Source: a virus
IMG/VR virus record: IMGVR_UViG_3300025874_000006
Location: 87,104 to 151,103 of that record
Direction: 5' to 3' (one strand)
DNA length: 64,000 bases
Position numbers and translations under genes: made by a program
Shown: positions 44,166-59,297 of the stretch, piece by piece
Layout of the letters: every line of letters starts with the position of its first letter
Position numbering within the stretch: position 1 is the stretch's first letter
Notes under the pieces: generated by a model
What the model saw: only the letters and a program-made list of their open reading frames with translations
Databases searched by the model: none
Told to the model about the DNA's origin: nothing

Positions 44166-45465
44166 CAGAAACCGCAACGTCTATCTGAGGTAATTCAGGT
44201 AAAGTCAAATCTATTGACATCGGAACCCCAATCAACTTCAAAAAGTCACAGAATGTGATCGTTAGTAGGTCTAATATGGCACCTAGTCCTATAGCATCTA
44301 GGAATGATTTGATCTTATTGATCCACATAAGAATCAACTCCTTCTGCCATTGCGCAAACCAGTCACGTGCCGCACGTACCATTTCGTTTATCTGGTCTTC
44401 CGGACATTCTACATTGGTATCGATCTCACCCCCAATGATATCCAGAAGAGACATACCGAACAAGGATACGTCTTTGAGTTGATCGACAATGAACCCATTG
44501 ATAGTAAAGTTTACGATATCATCTTCCAACTTAGCAATCTTTTCTTCAGCATCTTTTTTAGCATCTTCCGCTAATGTCTCAACATCTACCTTGAGCTGCT
44601 CTAACTGTGCTTCAAGAGATGCTAGTTCTCCTAGTGCTTGTTCTTTGAATGCGTCTATCTGTGCACGTATAAAGGTTTCTACATCGAACTCTAATAAAGC
44701 AGGTAGACTAGGTAGACCCAAGGTATCCCAGATCTCTTTGAATGCATCAATCAATGCACCGAATGCTGCTTGTAATAGATTGGTACACCACTTAACCAAC
44801 TCGTTTTTAAAATATGCCCAAGTAAGTTTACCCTTCCACTCGTCACATTCGATACCGAACTCACCTTTGTAGTACTGATATCCTTCGGGTACCAGAGCAT
44901 AGTACTTGTCCACCTCATTGGTGATTTGTTTCTTGAGTCGTTCCTGTTCTTCCTTCTCTAGTACCCTGAGTAGGTCAACCTCTATACCCATCACGGTTAC
45001 TGTGAACTCTATCGGTATCACTGTGGATATCAGTTCAAGTATCTTGGTTGGGATGTACATGTGGAACTCATCAATCAGTTCCGACCATGCATCGTTAGCT
45101 TCTTTCTGCCAGTTACGTATCTGACCGTTCTGCCACCACGGTGATAGAAGGTTTTCTTGCAATGCCATGAAGTCTTCGACCTGTTTGATGATATCTTCGA
45201 TGACAGCGAATTGTTCGAGGTACTTGTCGAGCTCTTTCTGTATCTCCGCATCGATGTCTATATCAGGACGGGTTTTCAACTCTTCTTCTAATTGCTTTCT
45301 TTTATCCTCTTTAATCTTTTCTAAATTGATGGTCGACATTGACGCCTTCAACTTACTAGGTATCATTGCGATATCATTATAGAACTGTACGTACTCAGCT
45401 TTGGTAGGGAGCAACGAACCGGAACAAGGTAGTTCCAGACTAATTTCTGGGAGTTGGTATGTCAT
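44161..45465 (-). CDS. conserved helical virion protein, unassigned
   Basis: 434 residues, mainly amphipathic and coiled-coil helices (LEKIKEDKRKQLEEELKTRP; ASLEAQLEQLKVDVETLAED) with hydrophobic segments (LLDIIGG; AILDLLTITFCDFLKLIG). N-terminus PEISLELPCSGSLLPTKAEY and C-terminus DLTLPELPQIDVAV look like sheet-forming arms. It lies between the gp5-like spike and gp25 and is stop-start coupled to the spike. Similar-sized unassigned virion proteins occupy this slot in cyanophage-type genomes. A hub or baseplate-internal role is likely; function unknown. Confidence 0.6.
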   Translation of the reverse strand: MTYQLPEISLELPCSGSLLPTKAEYVQFYNDIAMIPSKLKASMSTINLEKIKEDKRKQLEEELKTRPDIDIDAEIQKELDKYLEQFAVIEDIIKQVEDFMALQENLLSPWWQNGQIRNWQKEANDAWSELIDEFHMYIPTKILELISTVIPIEFTVTVMGIEVDLLRVLEKEEQERLKKQITNEVDKYYALVPEGYQYYKGEFGIECDEWKGKLTWAYFKNELVKWCTNLLQAAFGALIDAFKEIWDTLGLPSLPALLEFDVETFIRAQIDAFKEQALGELASLEAQLEQLKVDVETLAEDAKKDAEEKIAKLEDDIVNFTINGFIVDQLKDVSLFGMSLLDIIGGEIDTNVECPEDQINEMVRAARDWFAQWQKELILMWINKIKSFLDAIGLGAILDLLTITFCDFLKLIGVPMSIDLTLPELPQIDVAVSV

Positions 45466-46073
45466 TATGAGTTCAGTTTTACCACACCACCGTTCACGCT
45501 CACTACTGGTGCAGTGACATTGACTTCAGCAGTACCGTGGATGGTAACCTTCGTGTCACCCCATATCTCTATGCCGTCATCGGTCATCTCGTAGTACGTA
45601 CCCTTCTTGTGGTATTCTTTGATACGTCCGGTACCTGAATCATCATACTCTTTGAAGTGTCCGGTCTCTGTCTGATACACTTTGTTGTGTGGGTAGTTGG
45701 CCTCCGCCTTAGGGTTCGCATCACTTTTTAAAATAGGTTTTTTATTAGAGTCCACTTCTCCGGTGTCTATCACTTTAGGTACAGTACCAATCACCATAGG
45801 TAACTGAGAACTCTTGCCATCCAAGAACATACCGAACACCTGTGTACCCACTAGGATACCTAGGTACTGTCCCTTACCTTCATGGACACCCGTAGTGACA
45901 GGTACAACGATCTGGGCCCAAGGTAGGTCAGCCTCATCGATATCATCATATACACCGAAAACCCTAACCTTGACTCTACCCAACTTCTCTGGATCGTCCT
46001 TTACATTGACAACCTCACCAAGGAACCAACGTGATTGGTCACCATAGAATTCAGTAAAACTGCTCGGCATCAT
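45465..46073 (-). CDS. 5: gp5-like baseplate spike without lysozyme
   Basis: 202 residues. Residues about 13-105 are the gp5 OB-fold domain: RWFLGEVVNVKDDPEKLGRV, VRVFGVYDD, LPWAQIVVPVTTGVHEGKG and LDGKSSQLPMVIGTVP. The C-terminal end is a short beta-strand series (YYEMTDDGIEIWGDTKVTIH; VNVTAPVVSVNGGVVKL), like the start of a gp5 needle. T4 gp5 (575 residues) carries a lysozyme between these parts. None is present here, so wall cutting must come from another protein. ATG overlaps the stop of the gp27-like gene. Confidence 0.85.
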   Translation of the reverse strand: MMPSSFTEFYGDQSRWFLGEVVNVKDDPEKLGRVKVRVFGVYDDIDEADLPWAQIVVPVTTGVHEGKGQYLGILVGTQVFGMFLDGKSSQLPMVIGTVPKVIDTGEVDSNKKPILKSDANPKAEANYPHNKVYQTETGHFKEYDDSGTGRIKEYHKKGTYYEMTDDGIEIWGDTKVTIHGTAEVNVTAPVVSVNGGVVKLNS

Positions 46074-51155: not shown

Positions 51156-51863
51156 ATGGCTTTACCAAAACTGAATTCAGCACCAACATATGAAATGAAA
51201 ATCCCCTCGACGGGTCAGAGTGTGGTCTACCGACCATTCCTTGTAAAGGAACAGAAGAACCTCCTCATAGCATTTGAGGCACAGAACCGCCAAGACTTAG
51301 TCAGGGCAGTTATACGAACAATCGAGGCATGTGTAGAAGATTCTATCAAAGGAACTCTAACAACATTTGATGTCGATTACATGTTCACTAAGATACGTTC
51401 TAAGTCCGTTGGTGAGACTGCTGATATCCTTGTACCCTGTGAAGAGTGTGATACTAATAATGAAATCACAGTTGAACTAGACAAGGTAGAAGTCACTGGC
51501 GATATGCCTGAGATGTTGATACCAATCAATGACGATGTCACTGTTAAGATGAAGTTCCCGACATACGAGGAATTCTTATCTAACCAGACCCTTCTGGATA
51601 GCACGAGTGCAACCGAAGCGTTACTCCAACTCATCGTCACATGTTTAGATTCGGTGTTGACCGAAGAAGAAAGGTTCGCTATTAAAGACGAACCACAAGA
51701 AGAAATTGTAACCTTCTTGGAGTCTATGACTACCGAACAGTTCGGAAAGGTTTCTGCCTTCGCTGCTTCGATACCGGCATTGACCCAAGACCTAGAATTC
51801 GCATGTGAATCATGCGGTCATAATAATAAGAAAACACTGAAAGGACTTGACGATTTTTTTTAA
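51156..51863 (+). CDS. 26: gp26-like baseplate hub/assembly protein
   Basis: 235 residues. KIPSTGQSVVYRPFLVKEQK then LLIAFEAQN, DVDYMFTKIRSKSVGE and PTYEEFL are the T4 baseplate protein (PF12322-type, gp26) pattern. Two CxxC pairs (Cys95/98 in CEEC, Cys217/220 in CESC) probably bind zinc. In T4-like phages this protein is a hub or assembly factor placed just before the tape measure. That is the slot of the frameshifted tail assembly chaperone in other phages. The gene ends on eight T residues followed by TAA; a -1 shift would continue into the reading frame described next. Confidence 0.8.
   Translation: MALPKLNSAPTYEMKIPSTGQSVVYRPFLVKEQKNLLIAFEAQNRQDLVRAVIRTIEACVEDSIKGTLTTFDVDYMFTKIRSKSVGETADILVPCEECDTNNEITVELDKVEVTGDMPEMLIPINDDVTVKMKFPTYEEFLSNQTLLDSTSATEALLQLIVTCLDSVLTEEERFAIKDEPQEEIVTFLESMTTEQFGKVSAFAASIPALTQDLEFACESCGHNNKKTLKGLDDFF
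51854..51861 (+). promoter_or_regulatory. candidate -1 frameshift slippery run
   Basis: Eight consecutive T residues overlap the stop of the gp26-like gene (GAT TTT TTT TAA). Slipping back one base reads TTA ATA AAT CTC and enters an open frame of 58 more codons. Confidence 0.55.
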
Positions 51864-52042
51864 TAAATCTCTCTCATGACACCCTAGCCAATTACTACCA
51901 AGTCAACTTCCAACTACTGAATAACTTCAATTATTCGTTAGATGAAGTAGAAGGAATGATACCTTGGGAGAGAGAGATTTACTTGACGATGTTGGTTGAC
52001 GACATCAACGAGAAAAATCAGAGGGCTAAACAGAAAGGATAA
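51860..52042 (+). CDS. -1 frame extension of gp26-like gene (gp51-like)
   Basis: An open frame in -1 relative to the gp26-like gene. It reads NLSHDTLANYYQVNFQLLNN then YSLDEVEGMIPWEREIYLTM then VDDINEKNQRAKQ before TAA, 3 bases before the tape measure ATG. The only ATG is deep inside (before IPWERE), so independent translation of the whole frame is unlikely. IPWEREIY resembles the end of tail assembly chaperones and T4 gp51-like proteins. Best read as the C-terminal extension made by -1 frameshifting; a separately started gp51 homologue using a non-ATG start is the alternative. Confidence 0.65.
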   Translation, partial: LINLSHDTLANYYQVNFQLLNNFNYSLDEVEGMIPWEREIYLTMLVDDINEKNQRAKQKG

Positions 52043-52045
52043 CCA

Positions 52046-53710
52046 ATGAGTCTTAAACGAGTATCAGAGAAACTTGGAGAACAGAACGACCTCTTAACGG
52101 AGATTGCGCTGGATATCTATGGGTATCTGGATAGTGCGATATCTAAGGTAGAGACCTCTAGTAAAGCATTGGATGCTATAAACGCTACCAATAATAACAT
52201 CTTGAATGTCGTACAATCGTTTCAGACTCAGGGCGGAGATGCCCTAGAAGAAAAGCGCGACAACAAACTGGCTGACAGCAAAATGCTCGCGGCCTTAGAG
52301 GGTATCCAGAAGAACACCAAGGGTGGTGCCACTAGCAAGAAGAGTTTCGGAGAGACTGCCGGTAAGGGTATCGGAGCAGGTGTTGGTGCTGGTCTAGGTT
52401 TCGCTATGAAAGGACTTGGTGCGGTCGCAACTCTGGGTGCATTAGGTTTTGGTATCGGTGCATTCTTTACTGGTTTGGCATTAGGTGATAAAGCACAAGC
52501 GATGATTGGCACGGATATGACTGCCACCAAGAAGAACATGATTACTCTTGGTGAAGCATTCGCAGAGACACCTACTGAAGGTCTCCTTGCGATGGGTGTG
52601 TTGGCAGGAGTAGGTGCAAAGTTCGGTAGTATGAAAGGTGCCCTCAAGATGGGATTCTTTGGTGCTGGTATTGGTGCATTCTTCTCTGGTCTAGCATTAG
52701 GCGACAAAGGAATGTCGTTACTGAATACTGACGGTTCTGCACTCAAGAACATGATGGTAAGTCTAGGTGAAGGACTCAACGCATTTAGTGGTACCTCACT
52801 AGTAGCATTAGGTGGTCTTATTGCATTCGGTAGTGCATTCGGTAGTGCAGCTGCTGTCGGTCTTCCTCTACTGGGTGTAGGTCTAGCAGGATTCTTTGGT
52901 GCATTCGATCTTGCTGCCATGGCAGGTATAGATGGTAGTGGTCTAGGTACAATGTTAGGAAACCTTGCGACTGGTCTTGCACCGCTCAGTGAACTGGACG
53001 GTACTAACCTTATTGCAGTCGGTGGCGCTATGGCTGCACTAGGTGTCGGTATGGTTGCTCTAATGGGTGGCAGTGGTCTCGCTAGTGTCATGGATTTTGT
53101 CGGTGGATTGTTTGGTGGTGACGATGAGGATATCTTCACTAAACTATACAACGGTCTACAACCCCTATCTACATTGAACGCAGACAACCTTAAAGGACTT
53201 GGAGATATATCTACTGTCATCGATGGTCTTGCAGATTCTCTAGATAGACTTATTGATACAGACTATGATGCAGTCAACGATTCCATAGGGGATTTCGGTA
53301 AGACAATGTCATATGCGATACCTATGCTGGCTGCAATGAAAGGTCAAGGTACCGGAGAGAACCCTTATGTTGTTGGTAATGGTTGGTTTGATGGTCAGAA
53401 AGAACTTGACTTCTCGCCAGGCATAAACTCTTTTTCTACCAAAGATATAGAGATGATGAATAACATCGCATCCGCAGGATCTCAGATATCATCTAACTCT
53501 TCGGGACAACAACAGAAATCAACTTCCGCAGGGAACGTTAGTAAACTGGTTACAGAAAAAGATTCGGTCGCTTCAGCTGCTCCGGTCGTTATCATGGACA
53601 ACAGCACAAACACCTCATCTTCCGGTGGCGGTGGTGGGATGACTGTCTTAGGTGGGCCTATATCACCTTTCGATCTAATGGATCCTTACTTCTCTACTCG
53701 ACCAGCATAA
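52046..53710 (+). CDS. 29: tail tape measure / hub protein gp29-like
   Basis: 554 residues (T4 gp29: 590, so the tail length is probably similar). N-terminus helical (VSEKLGEQNDLLTEIALDIY). Residues about 110-400 are long hydrophobic Gly/Ala-rich repeats: GFGIGAFFTGLALGDKAQAM and GAGIGAFFSGLALGDKGMSL are near copies about 70 residues apart. The polar C-terminus has a Ser/Gly linker (NTSSSGGGGG). The order, directly after the frameshifted gp26-like gene, is the classic tape measure slot. It fills the tube lumen and exits on injection. Start has AAAGGA upstream. Confidence 0.8.
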   Translation: MSLKRVSEKLGEQNDLLTEIALDIYGYLDSAISKVETSSKALDAINATNNNILNVVQSFQTQGGDALEEKRDNKLADSKMLAALEGIQKNTKGGATSKKSFGETAGKGIGAGVGAGLGFAMKGLGAVATLGALGFGIGAFFTGLALGDKAQAMIGTDMTATKKNMITLGEAFAETPTEGLLAMGVLAGVGAKFGSMKGALKMGFFGAGIGAFFSGLALGDKGMSLLNTDGSALKNMMVSLGEGLNAFSGTSLVALGGLIAFGSAFGSAAAVGLPLLGVGLAGFFGAFDLAAMAGIDGSGLGTMLGNLATGLAPLSELDGTNLIAVGGAMAALGVGMVALMGGSGLASVMDFVGGLFGGDDEDIFTKLYNGLQPLSTLNADNLKGLGDISTVIDGLADSLDRLIDTDYDAVNDSIGDFGKTMSYAIPMLAAMKGQGTGENPYVVGNGWFDGQKELDFSPGINSFSTKDIEMMNNIASAGSQISSNSSGQQQKSTSAGNVSKLVTEKDSVASAAPVVIMDNSTNTSSSGGGGGMTVLGGPISPFDLMDPYFSTRPA

Positions 53711-58689: not shown

Positions 58690-59082
58690 TCACTTTTTTG
58701 TAGGTCTTTTCTTGACCGGAGTCTTCTTTTTGGTCACGGGAGAGAAAGACTTCTTTCTGGTCGTGGTAGGTTTCTTGACCGGAGTCTTCTTTTTGACTGT
58801 TGGTTTCTTGACCGGAGTCTTCTTTTTGACTGTTGGTTTCTTCTTTACCTTTGGGGGAGTTATTTCGAAGGTCTTCGCTAGGAACTCGTTCACCGATAGA
58901 CCACAGTTTCGTAGAAGTTTCTCATAGACCGCAATATCGTCCATATCCCAACCATGTGGGGTCTCTAGGAACTGTCCGTAGTGATCCATTATCTGTTCCG
59001 CAAGTCGGCTACACTCTTCAGTATCCTTGTCGTAGAGGTACCTTACCTTACGGTCATAGTTAAGTTTAACAATTTTAGGCAT
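58690..59082 (-). CDS. protein with Lys/Pro-rich histone-H1-like tail
   Basis: 130 residues from the ATG at 59082. Residues 1-83 are globular: KLNYDRKVRYLYDKDTEECS, HYGQFLETPHGWDMDDIAVY, NCGLSVNEFLAKTFEI. From about residue 84 the chain is repeats of PTVKKKTPVKK type to the end. Lys-Pro tails of this kind bind nucleic acid non-specifically (histone H1-like). A DNA or RNA contact role is therefore likely, with the head giving specificity. TAATG-type coupling to the gene before it. Confidence 0.65.
   Translation of the reverse strand: MPKIVKLNYDRKVRYLYDKDTEECSRLAEQIMDHYGQFLETPHGWDMDDIAVYEKLLRNCGLSVNEFLAKTFEITPPKVKKKPTVKKKTPVKKPTVKKKTPVKKPTTTRKKSFSPVTKKKTPVKKRPTKK
58771..58840. repeat. 33-bp tandem repeat
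   Basis: Perfect 33-base units begin at 58771 and 58804, with a third start at 58837. They encode the 11-residue Lys/Pro unit in the tail of the histone-like protein. Confidence 0.85.
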
Positions 59083-59297
59083 TATAGTAACCCACAAGTC
59101 TTTTGCCAAATCTCATCTAACTCTTCACGCATACTCGACTCTTGCCATTCGGTAGATGTGTATATGGTTGGAGCAGGGCCACCATGAGAATTGACAGCAT
59201 AGGATAGGAACTGAGGAGACCGACCAGCGGCAAGTAGATTGCCCTCAGAGTATAGTTCAATCAATCCGTCTGAATCAACACTGATAGTATCAATCAT
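59082..59297 (-). CDS. small hypothetical protein
   Basis: 71 residues. ISVDSDGLIELYSEGNLLAA then APTIYTSTEWQESSMREELD. Unrecognised. ATG overlaps the previous stop (GCATGA). Confidence 0.55.
   Translation of the reverse strand: MIDTISVDSDGLIELYSEGNLLAAGRSPQFLSYAVNSHGGPAPTIYTSTEWQESSMREELDEIWQKTCGLL

Follow-up and report, generated by a model that had tools for sequence, protein, structure and literature searches.

A tail assembly chaperone locus of a T4-like phage with a putative -1 frameshift signal and a conserved long-range RNA stem

The gp26-like gene that lies before the probable tape measure gene of this marine T4-like phage ends in a run of Ts, and an open reading frame without an evident start codon overlaps its end. 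Does translation stop there, or is the gene extended by a programmed -1 frameshift, as a sequence-only reading had proposed?

Reading frames and protein identity of the locus

The analysed window is the whole 64,000-nt stretch of DNA, taken from a 151-kb record. The coding features at the locus are:

51156..51863, + strand: TAC-N, the short chaperone (T4 gp26-like, 235 aa), with its TAA stop at 51861-51863; assigned by PF12322, phrog_150, a 38-row alignment and an AlphaFold2 model
51854..51860, + strand: putative slippery heptamer T TTT TTT, within a T8 run at 51854-51861; the GAT TTT TTT codons are without synonymous variation
51860..52042, + strand: TAC-C, gp51-like -1 extension of 60 codons plus stop; assigned by phrog_634 and phrog_150 columns 235-281
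52046..53710, + strand: probable tape measure protein (554 aa), from position, size and hydrophobic segments

On direct reading, the zero-frame ORF (51156-51863, + strand) closes with GAC GAT TTT TTT TAA, and thus with the eight Ts and the TAA that had been described. No stop interrupts the -1 frame between 51851 and a TAA at 52040-52042, and entry at TTA 51860 adds 60 residues (LINLSHDTLANYYQVNFQLLNNFNYSLDEVEGMIPWEREIYLTMLVDDINEKNQRAKQKG). The open -1 frame of the earlier proposal therefore stands, although its length of 58 codons does not. Joined, TAC-N and TAC-C form a TAC-NC of 295 aa. In agreement with the claim that the extension has no usable ATG, neither ATG, GTG nor TTG occurs in the first 25 codons of the -1 frame in the window; the sole in-frame ATG is at 51956, and a start there would leave 28 residues. 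The downstream ORF begins with ATG at 52046, 3 bases past the -1 stop, as had been stated. Its position, length and hydrophobic segments fit the proposed tape measure gene, but it had no match in Pfam or PHROG, and a profile comparison with T4 gp29 gave none either. A T8 run is not rare here (4 observed in the window, 4.4 expected), so it was discarded as evidence for a slip site by itself, and that evidence has to come from conservation.

The zero-frame product matched PF12322 (2.4e-55) and phrog_150 (3.3e-57). The -1 extension matched phrog_634, annotated as 'baseplate hub assembly catalyst' (2.1e-22), as well as columns 235-281 of phrog_150, and TAC-C is conserved across 70 aligned -1 ORFs. 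In T4 the match of gp26 to phrog_150 ends at column 235, and gp51 covers columns 13-280 of phrog_150 and also matches phrog_634. In the reverse comparison, the zero-frame profile matched both T4 proteins, whereas the profile of the -1 peptide matched the C-terminus of gp51 (202-249) and not gp26. The two T4 proteins are themselves recognisable kin (BLASTP E 2e-6, 20%). These profile matches indicate that: i) T4 gp26 is the short-form domain alone, and ii) T4 gp51 has both domains and is itself the long form, which identifies the locus studied here as a putative tail assembly chaperone of the T4 family (TAC-N/TAC-NC). T4 would then make its short and long forms from two genes, and this phage from one frameshifted gene. 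In both phages a short domain is paired with a product that joins this domain to TAC-C; the T4 genes, however, are separate, lie on opposite strands and are divergently transcribed, with no frameshift. The 151-kb record has one phrog_150/phrog_634 locus only, with no second copy.

AlphaFold2 modelled the short form with pLDDT 86 and pTM 0.81, and the nearest folds to this model in BFVD were predicted T4-type gp26/baseplate hub proteins. A search of the PDB with this model gave nothing significant; of the 50 matches listed, the HK97 chaperone 2ob9 (E 2.2) was the most probable at 0.47, which is not significant, and the modelled likeness to its fold is only suggestive.

The slip site among relatives

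At this locus an X XXY YYZ heptamer is present in phase as T TTT TTN, close to the end of the short ORF, and is followed by a -1 ORF without a start of its own. Eighty homologues (42-97% identity) came from the first scan of viral contigs, and all 78 that span the junction carry the T run in phase and a similar -1 ORF, barring contig ends. Each of the 124 distinct junctions collected has T TTT TTN followed by an open -1 ORF. A held-out set, made up of relatives of the exceptions L072, L034 and L038, contributed 52 further distinct junctions in which the slip site, the frame relation and both peptides are kept; 34 of them have T TTT TTC, including a group at 32-38% identity. The held-out junctions were located by means of their T6 run (where no junction was detected, in ten loci, the contig breaks off too early), and hence they are not an independent test of the slip site, but they do test the stem described below. 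Among annotated phages, 17 have T TTT TTN in phase and a -1 ORF of equal length: C48C1, S-SSM7, Mosig, syn9, HTVC008M, phiM12, PhiW-14, Ochrobactrum OC, S-CRM01, Yut3, S13, RHph_I46, R10Z, AS-zj, P-HM1, Melnitz-3 and XG4. Alignment of the T run and of both frames in related phages, named as a check when the frameshift was proposed, thus found both to be kept in the 78 contigs, the 17 phages and the 52 held-out junctions, and the slip site and the -1 ORF are retained down to ∼25-30% protein identity.

Codon usage sets the slip site apart. Over 60 conserved columns of 38 aligned homologues, the mean codon entropy was 1.19 bits, and zero synonymous variation was seen only at the final three codons, GAT TTT TTT; at five other Phe columns that are invariant or nearly so, TTC is used in 16-37% of the sequences. 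The heptamer occurs among relatives as U UUU UUU, U UUU UUC, U UUU UUG or U UUU UUA, each of which permits tandem -1 re-pairing. The zero-frame stop may be TAA, TAG or TGA, and is sometimes found one codon later. Since both the stop codon and its place vary and the slip site does not, the stop appears free to change and the slip site does not. The site was absent from T4 and from Vibrio phage D506. In the latter (L097, 3573-3773) the junction reads CTT TTC AAG TAA, with no T6, and the -1 ORF has an overlapping ATG; this arrangement is a possible third solution.

These data bear on three other explanations of the two frames. A run of eight Ts is error-prone, and an error of sequencing or assembly in this homopolymer could have split one continuous gp26-gp51 gene; the equal frame relation in more than 120 distinct junctions, the T6C variants and the differing stops already refute this, and we give it practically no weight. 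RNA polymerase might instead add a base on T8, a run of sufficient length, and the -1 frame would then be read from an altered mRNA to give an identical fusion. This transcriptional slippage is highly improbable, because many relatives have T6 followed by C, G or A (cyanophages, PhiW-14 and the 34 held-out junctions noted above) with the heptamer phase kept, and because a stem at ribosome spacing would be needless. A run of T6 is too short for efficient polymerase slippage.

The third explanation is that TAC-C is translated as a separate small protein, either by ribosomes that re-initiate at the stop or beyond it or through translational coupling there. Public records do annotate a distinct 'gp51' from internal starts, and in the distant phages S-CRM01, R10Z, RHph_I46, PhiW-14 and Yut3 a -1-frame ATG overlaps the TAC-N stop or lies just past it. 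However, the first 25 codons have no ATG, GTG or TTG in the window, L005, L023, L044, C48C1 and AS-zj, the annotated starts remove conserved residues, the slip site is retained even where an ATG is present, and the domain is fused in T4. We consider such independent synthesis very unlikely as the general explanation. In the distant phages L091, L095, L094, L088 and L092, which have an ATG at or near the TAC-N stop and retain the slip site, TAC-C might also arise alone. On the conservation of site, phase and peptides, programmed -1 frameshifting that yields a short and a long chaperone in the manner of G/GT is strongly supported.

RNA elements flanking the slip site

Three elements flank the heptamer on the RNA:

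51840..51845, + strand: Shine-Dalgarno-like AAAGGA, possible upstream stimulator, 8 nt before the heptamer, from anti-SD pairing
51868..51876, + strand: 5' arm of the predicted stem, UCUCUCUCA, 7 nt past the heptamer, covarying with the 3' arm
51965..51973, + strand: 3' arm of the predicted stem, UGGGAGAGA, pairing with the 5' arm across a loop of 88 nt (51877-51964)

RNAalifold, run on 23 sequences, paired CUCUCUCA, immediately past the slip site, with UGGGAGAG, which lies about 90 nt downstream of it. This downstream helix was missing from the sequence-only reading and is added by the present analysis. All 8 of 8 pairs can form in 48 of 53 distinct environmental sequences and 7 in the other 5; among the 52 held-out sequences, 43 have 8 of 8 pairs and 9 have 7. 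With the 9-bp stem, at least 8 of 9 pairs were present in 107 of 108 sequences. Overall, 96.8% of the stem cells are paired, versus 45-73% in shifted registers. In the window the two arms are paired in the minimum free energy (MFE) fold (-30.3 kcal/mol), which uses a 12-bp register shifted by 2 nt; that register is possible there but is not conserved (65.8% paired), and it was rejected in favour of the 9-bp register, which is conserved.

The arms encode conserved LSH and WERE motifs and 6 of the 9 pairs are invariant, so that the conservation of CUCUCUCA and UGGGAGAG could in principle reflect a constraint on protein or codons with no RNA stem. Codon choice and covariation argue against this, as does the poor pairing in shifted registers. 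All 105 environmental sequences have CTC or CTT as the Leu codon of the 5' arm (in the set of 53, CTC in 49 and CTT in 4), although TTA dominates and CTC is rare elsewhere. The Glu codon of the 3' arm is GAG in 48 of 53, against a GAG background of ∼28% with GAA dominant elsewhere, and the Arg codon of the stem is always AGR in these 53 sequences. Two pairs at third codon positions covary (n = 108): pair 32-131 is CG in 66 sequences, UA in 35, UG in 6 and CA in 1, and pair 29-134 is CG in 50, UA in 27 and CA in 31, never U with G. In the held-out sequences CTC occurs with GAG (15), CTT with GAA (31) and CTT with GAG (6, a U-G pair); CTC with GAA, the sole non-pairing combination, is absent (0/52). 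Fisher p-values for the covariation go down to 5e-21, but these are too small and should not be taken literally, because the sequences are related. On the protein tree the CTT/GAA double change appears in at least two separate places, so the covariation exceeds one inherited change, though the independent events are few. We therefore regard a constraint on protein or codons without a stem as unlikely. L072 is the sole environmental sequence with CTC opposite GAA, and its predicted arm pairing is lost.

Folding energies point in the same direction as the covariation. With synonymous shuffles of each ORF as the reference, the MFE z averaged -2.76 in the 53 environmental sequences and -3.07 in the 52 held-out ones, against a zero-frame control value of -0.68 (sd 1.18). 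Folding of the first 100 nt downstream alone gave little signal (z 0.2 to -2.3), because the 3' arm lies further downstream. The spacing between heptamer and stem, 7-8 nt, falls within the 5-9 nt of canonical -1 signals. The stem is common to C48C1, Mosig and Melnitz-3, and was not found in the more distant syn9, HTVC008M, S13 and AS-zj. In S-SSM7 (L083) a perfect local 12-bp hairpin (AAGTATGTCTCA/TGAGACATACTT), 4 nt after the slip site, replaces the long-range stem, and several other phages have different stable folds or none downstream of the slip site.

Upstream, most sequences carry an SD-like AAAGGA or GAGGG at a distance of ∼8-12 nt from the slip site. Across relatives, anti-SD pairing is strongest there, with a mean of about -5.9 kcal/mol versus -4.8 kcal/mol after synonymous resampling (84% of sequences). 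The evidence that this element is an upstream stimulator is suggestive only; the effect is modest and may partly follow from the protein. In -1 signals of the E. coli dnaX type, a homopolymeric slip site is combined with an upstream SD-like element and a downstream RNA structure. The same three elements occur at this locus, but the tight hairpin of the dnaX type is here a long-range stem with an intervening region of 88 nt.

Taken together, the data are best explained by a tail assembly chaperone gene of a T4-like myophage of the Kyanoviridae type, with TAC-N and TAC-NC made by -1 frameshifting and the stem promoting the shift; from the sequence comparisons we put the probability of this reading at about 0.93. 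For most ribosomes translation would end at the TAA at 51861, with the 235-aa TAC-N as the product. A minority would be paused by the long-range stem, which is probably the frameshift stimulator, perhaps with the aid of the SD-like sequence; the two tRNA-Phe would shift back by one base on U UUU UUU and pair again, and 60 more codons would be read to give the 295-aa TAC-NC. Both forms might then coat the tape measure and recruit the tail-tube protein, as lambda gpG and gpGT do. Sequence comparison establishes the slip site, the -1 ORF, the homology to T4 gp26 and gp51 and the covarying stem; ribosomal slippage and its rate, stimulation by the stem and chaperone action on the tape measure are what we infer from it.

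Relation to known chaperone systems

The study of Vladimirov and colleagues from 2022 reportedly found that the frameshift persists in several groups of T4-like phages and that T4 uses genes 26 and 51. A review from 2016 described the G-T frameshift as widely conserved 'except T4' (PMC5009743). As represented in passages of two later papers, Vladimirov, Gautam & Davidson (2022) identified the T4-family TAC-N/TAC-NC genes, namely gp26 and gp51 (cited in PMC10885494 and PMC12846349); some T4-like phages carry a short gene as well as a long, fused one (PMC10885494, citing Vladimirov et al. 2022), and in T4-like phages poly-T runs within TAC-N genes serve as -1 signals (PMC12846349, citing Vladimirov et al. 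2022). The system so described has a TAC-N/TAC-NC pair and poly-T slip signals, as here. Given that study and the papers citing it, the central interpretation, gp26/gp51 as one frameshifted product, is right but is already published and not new.

The likeness to the lambda G/GT frameshift, also part of the original proposal, is strongly supported by the conservation. Lambda makes a short chaperone and a rare -1 frameshifted longer form, as proposed here (PMC5009743); its slip sequence is different, and the present comparisons gave no sequence match or significant fold match between it and this locus. The large environmental set supports a chaperone frameshift of lambda type across relatives of T4, the type member long cited as an exception.

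The conserved RNA stem is most likely the part with the best claim to novelty. We lean, by a narrow margin over even odds, towards the view that a large group of marine T4-like phages shares an undescribed signal, U UUU UUN with a covarying long-range stem 7-8 nt beyond it that closes an 88-nt region of the TAC-C sequence and sets the TAC-N:TAC-NC ratio. In this view S-SSM7 relies on a local hairpin instead, further lineages on different structures, and T4 on two genes. The compact signal with its conserved long-range stem has a role that is open to direct reporter testing.

In many annotations 'gp51' is a small gene of its own; most likely it is the C-terminal part of a fusion. Public entries take it from internal starts of the -1 ORF (L082, 3283-3387; L085, 3271-3414; L084, 3262-3396; L086, 3253-3390), so that the protein is truncated and the fusion missed. 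C48C1 has an annotated 'gp51' of 34 aa and syn9 one of 47 aa; in S13 and AS-zj it is omitted. Elsewhere in the window, 45465-46073 (- strand) encodes a gp5-like protein of 202 aa with a match to the N-terminal OB domain and no match to a Pfam lysozyme domain, and an ORF at 58690-59109 (- strand) carries terminal Lys/Pro/Thr-rich tandem repeats (KKKTPVKKPTV).
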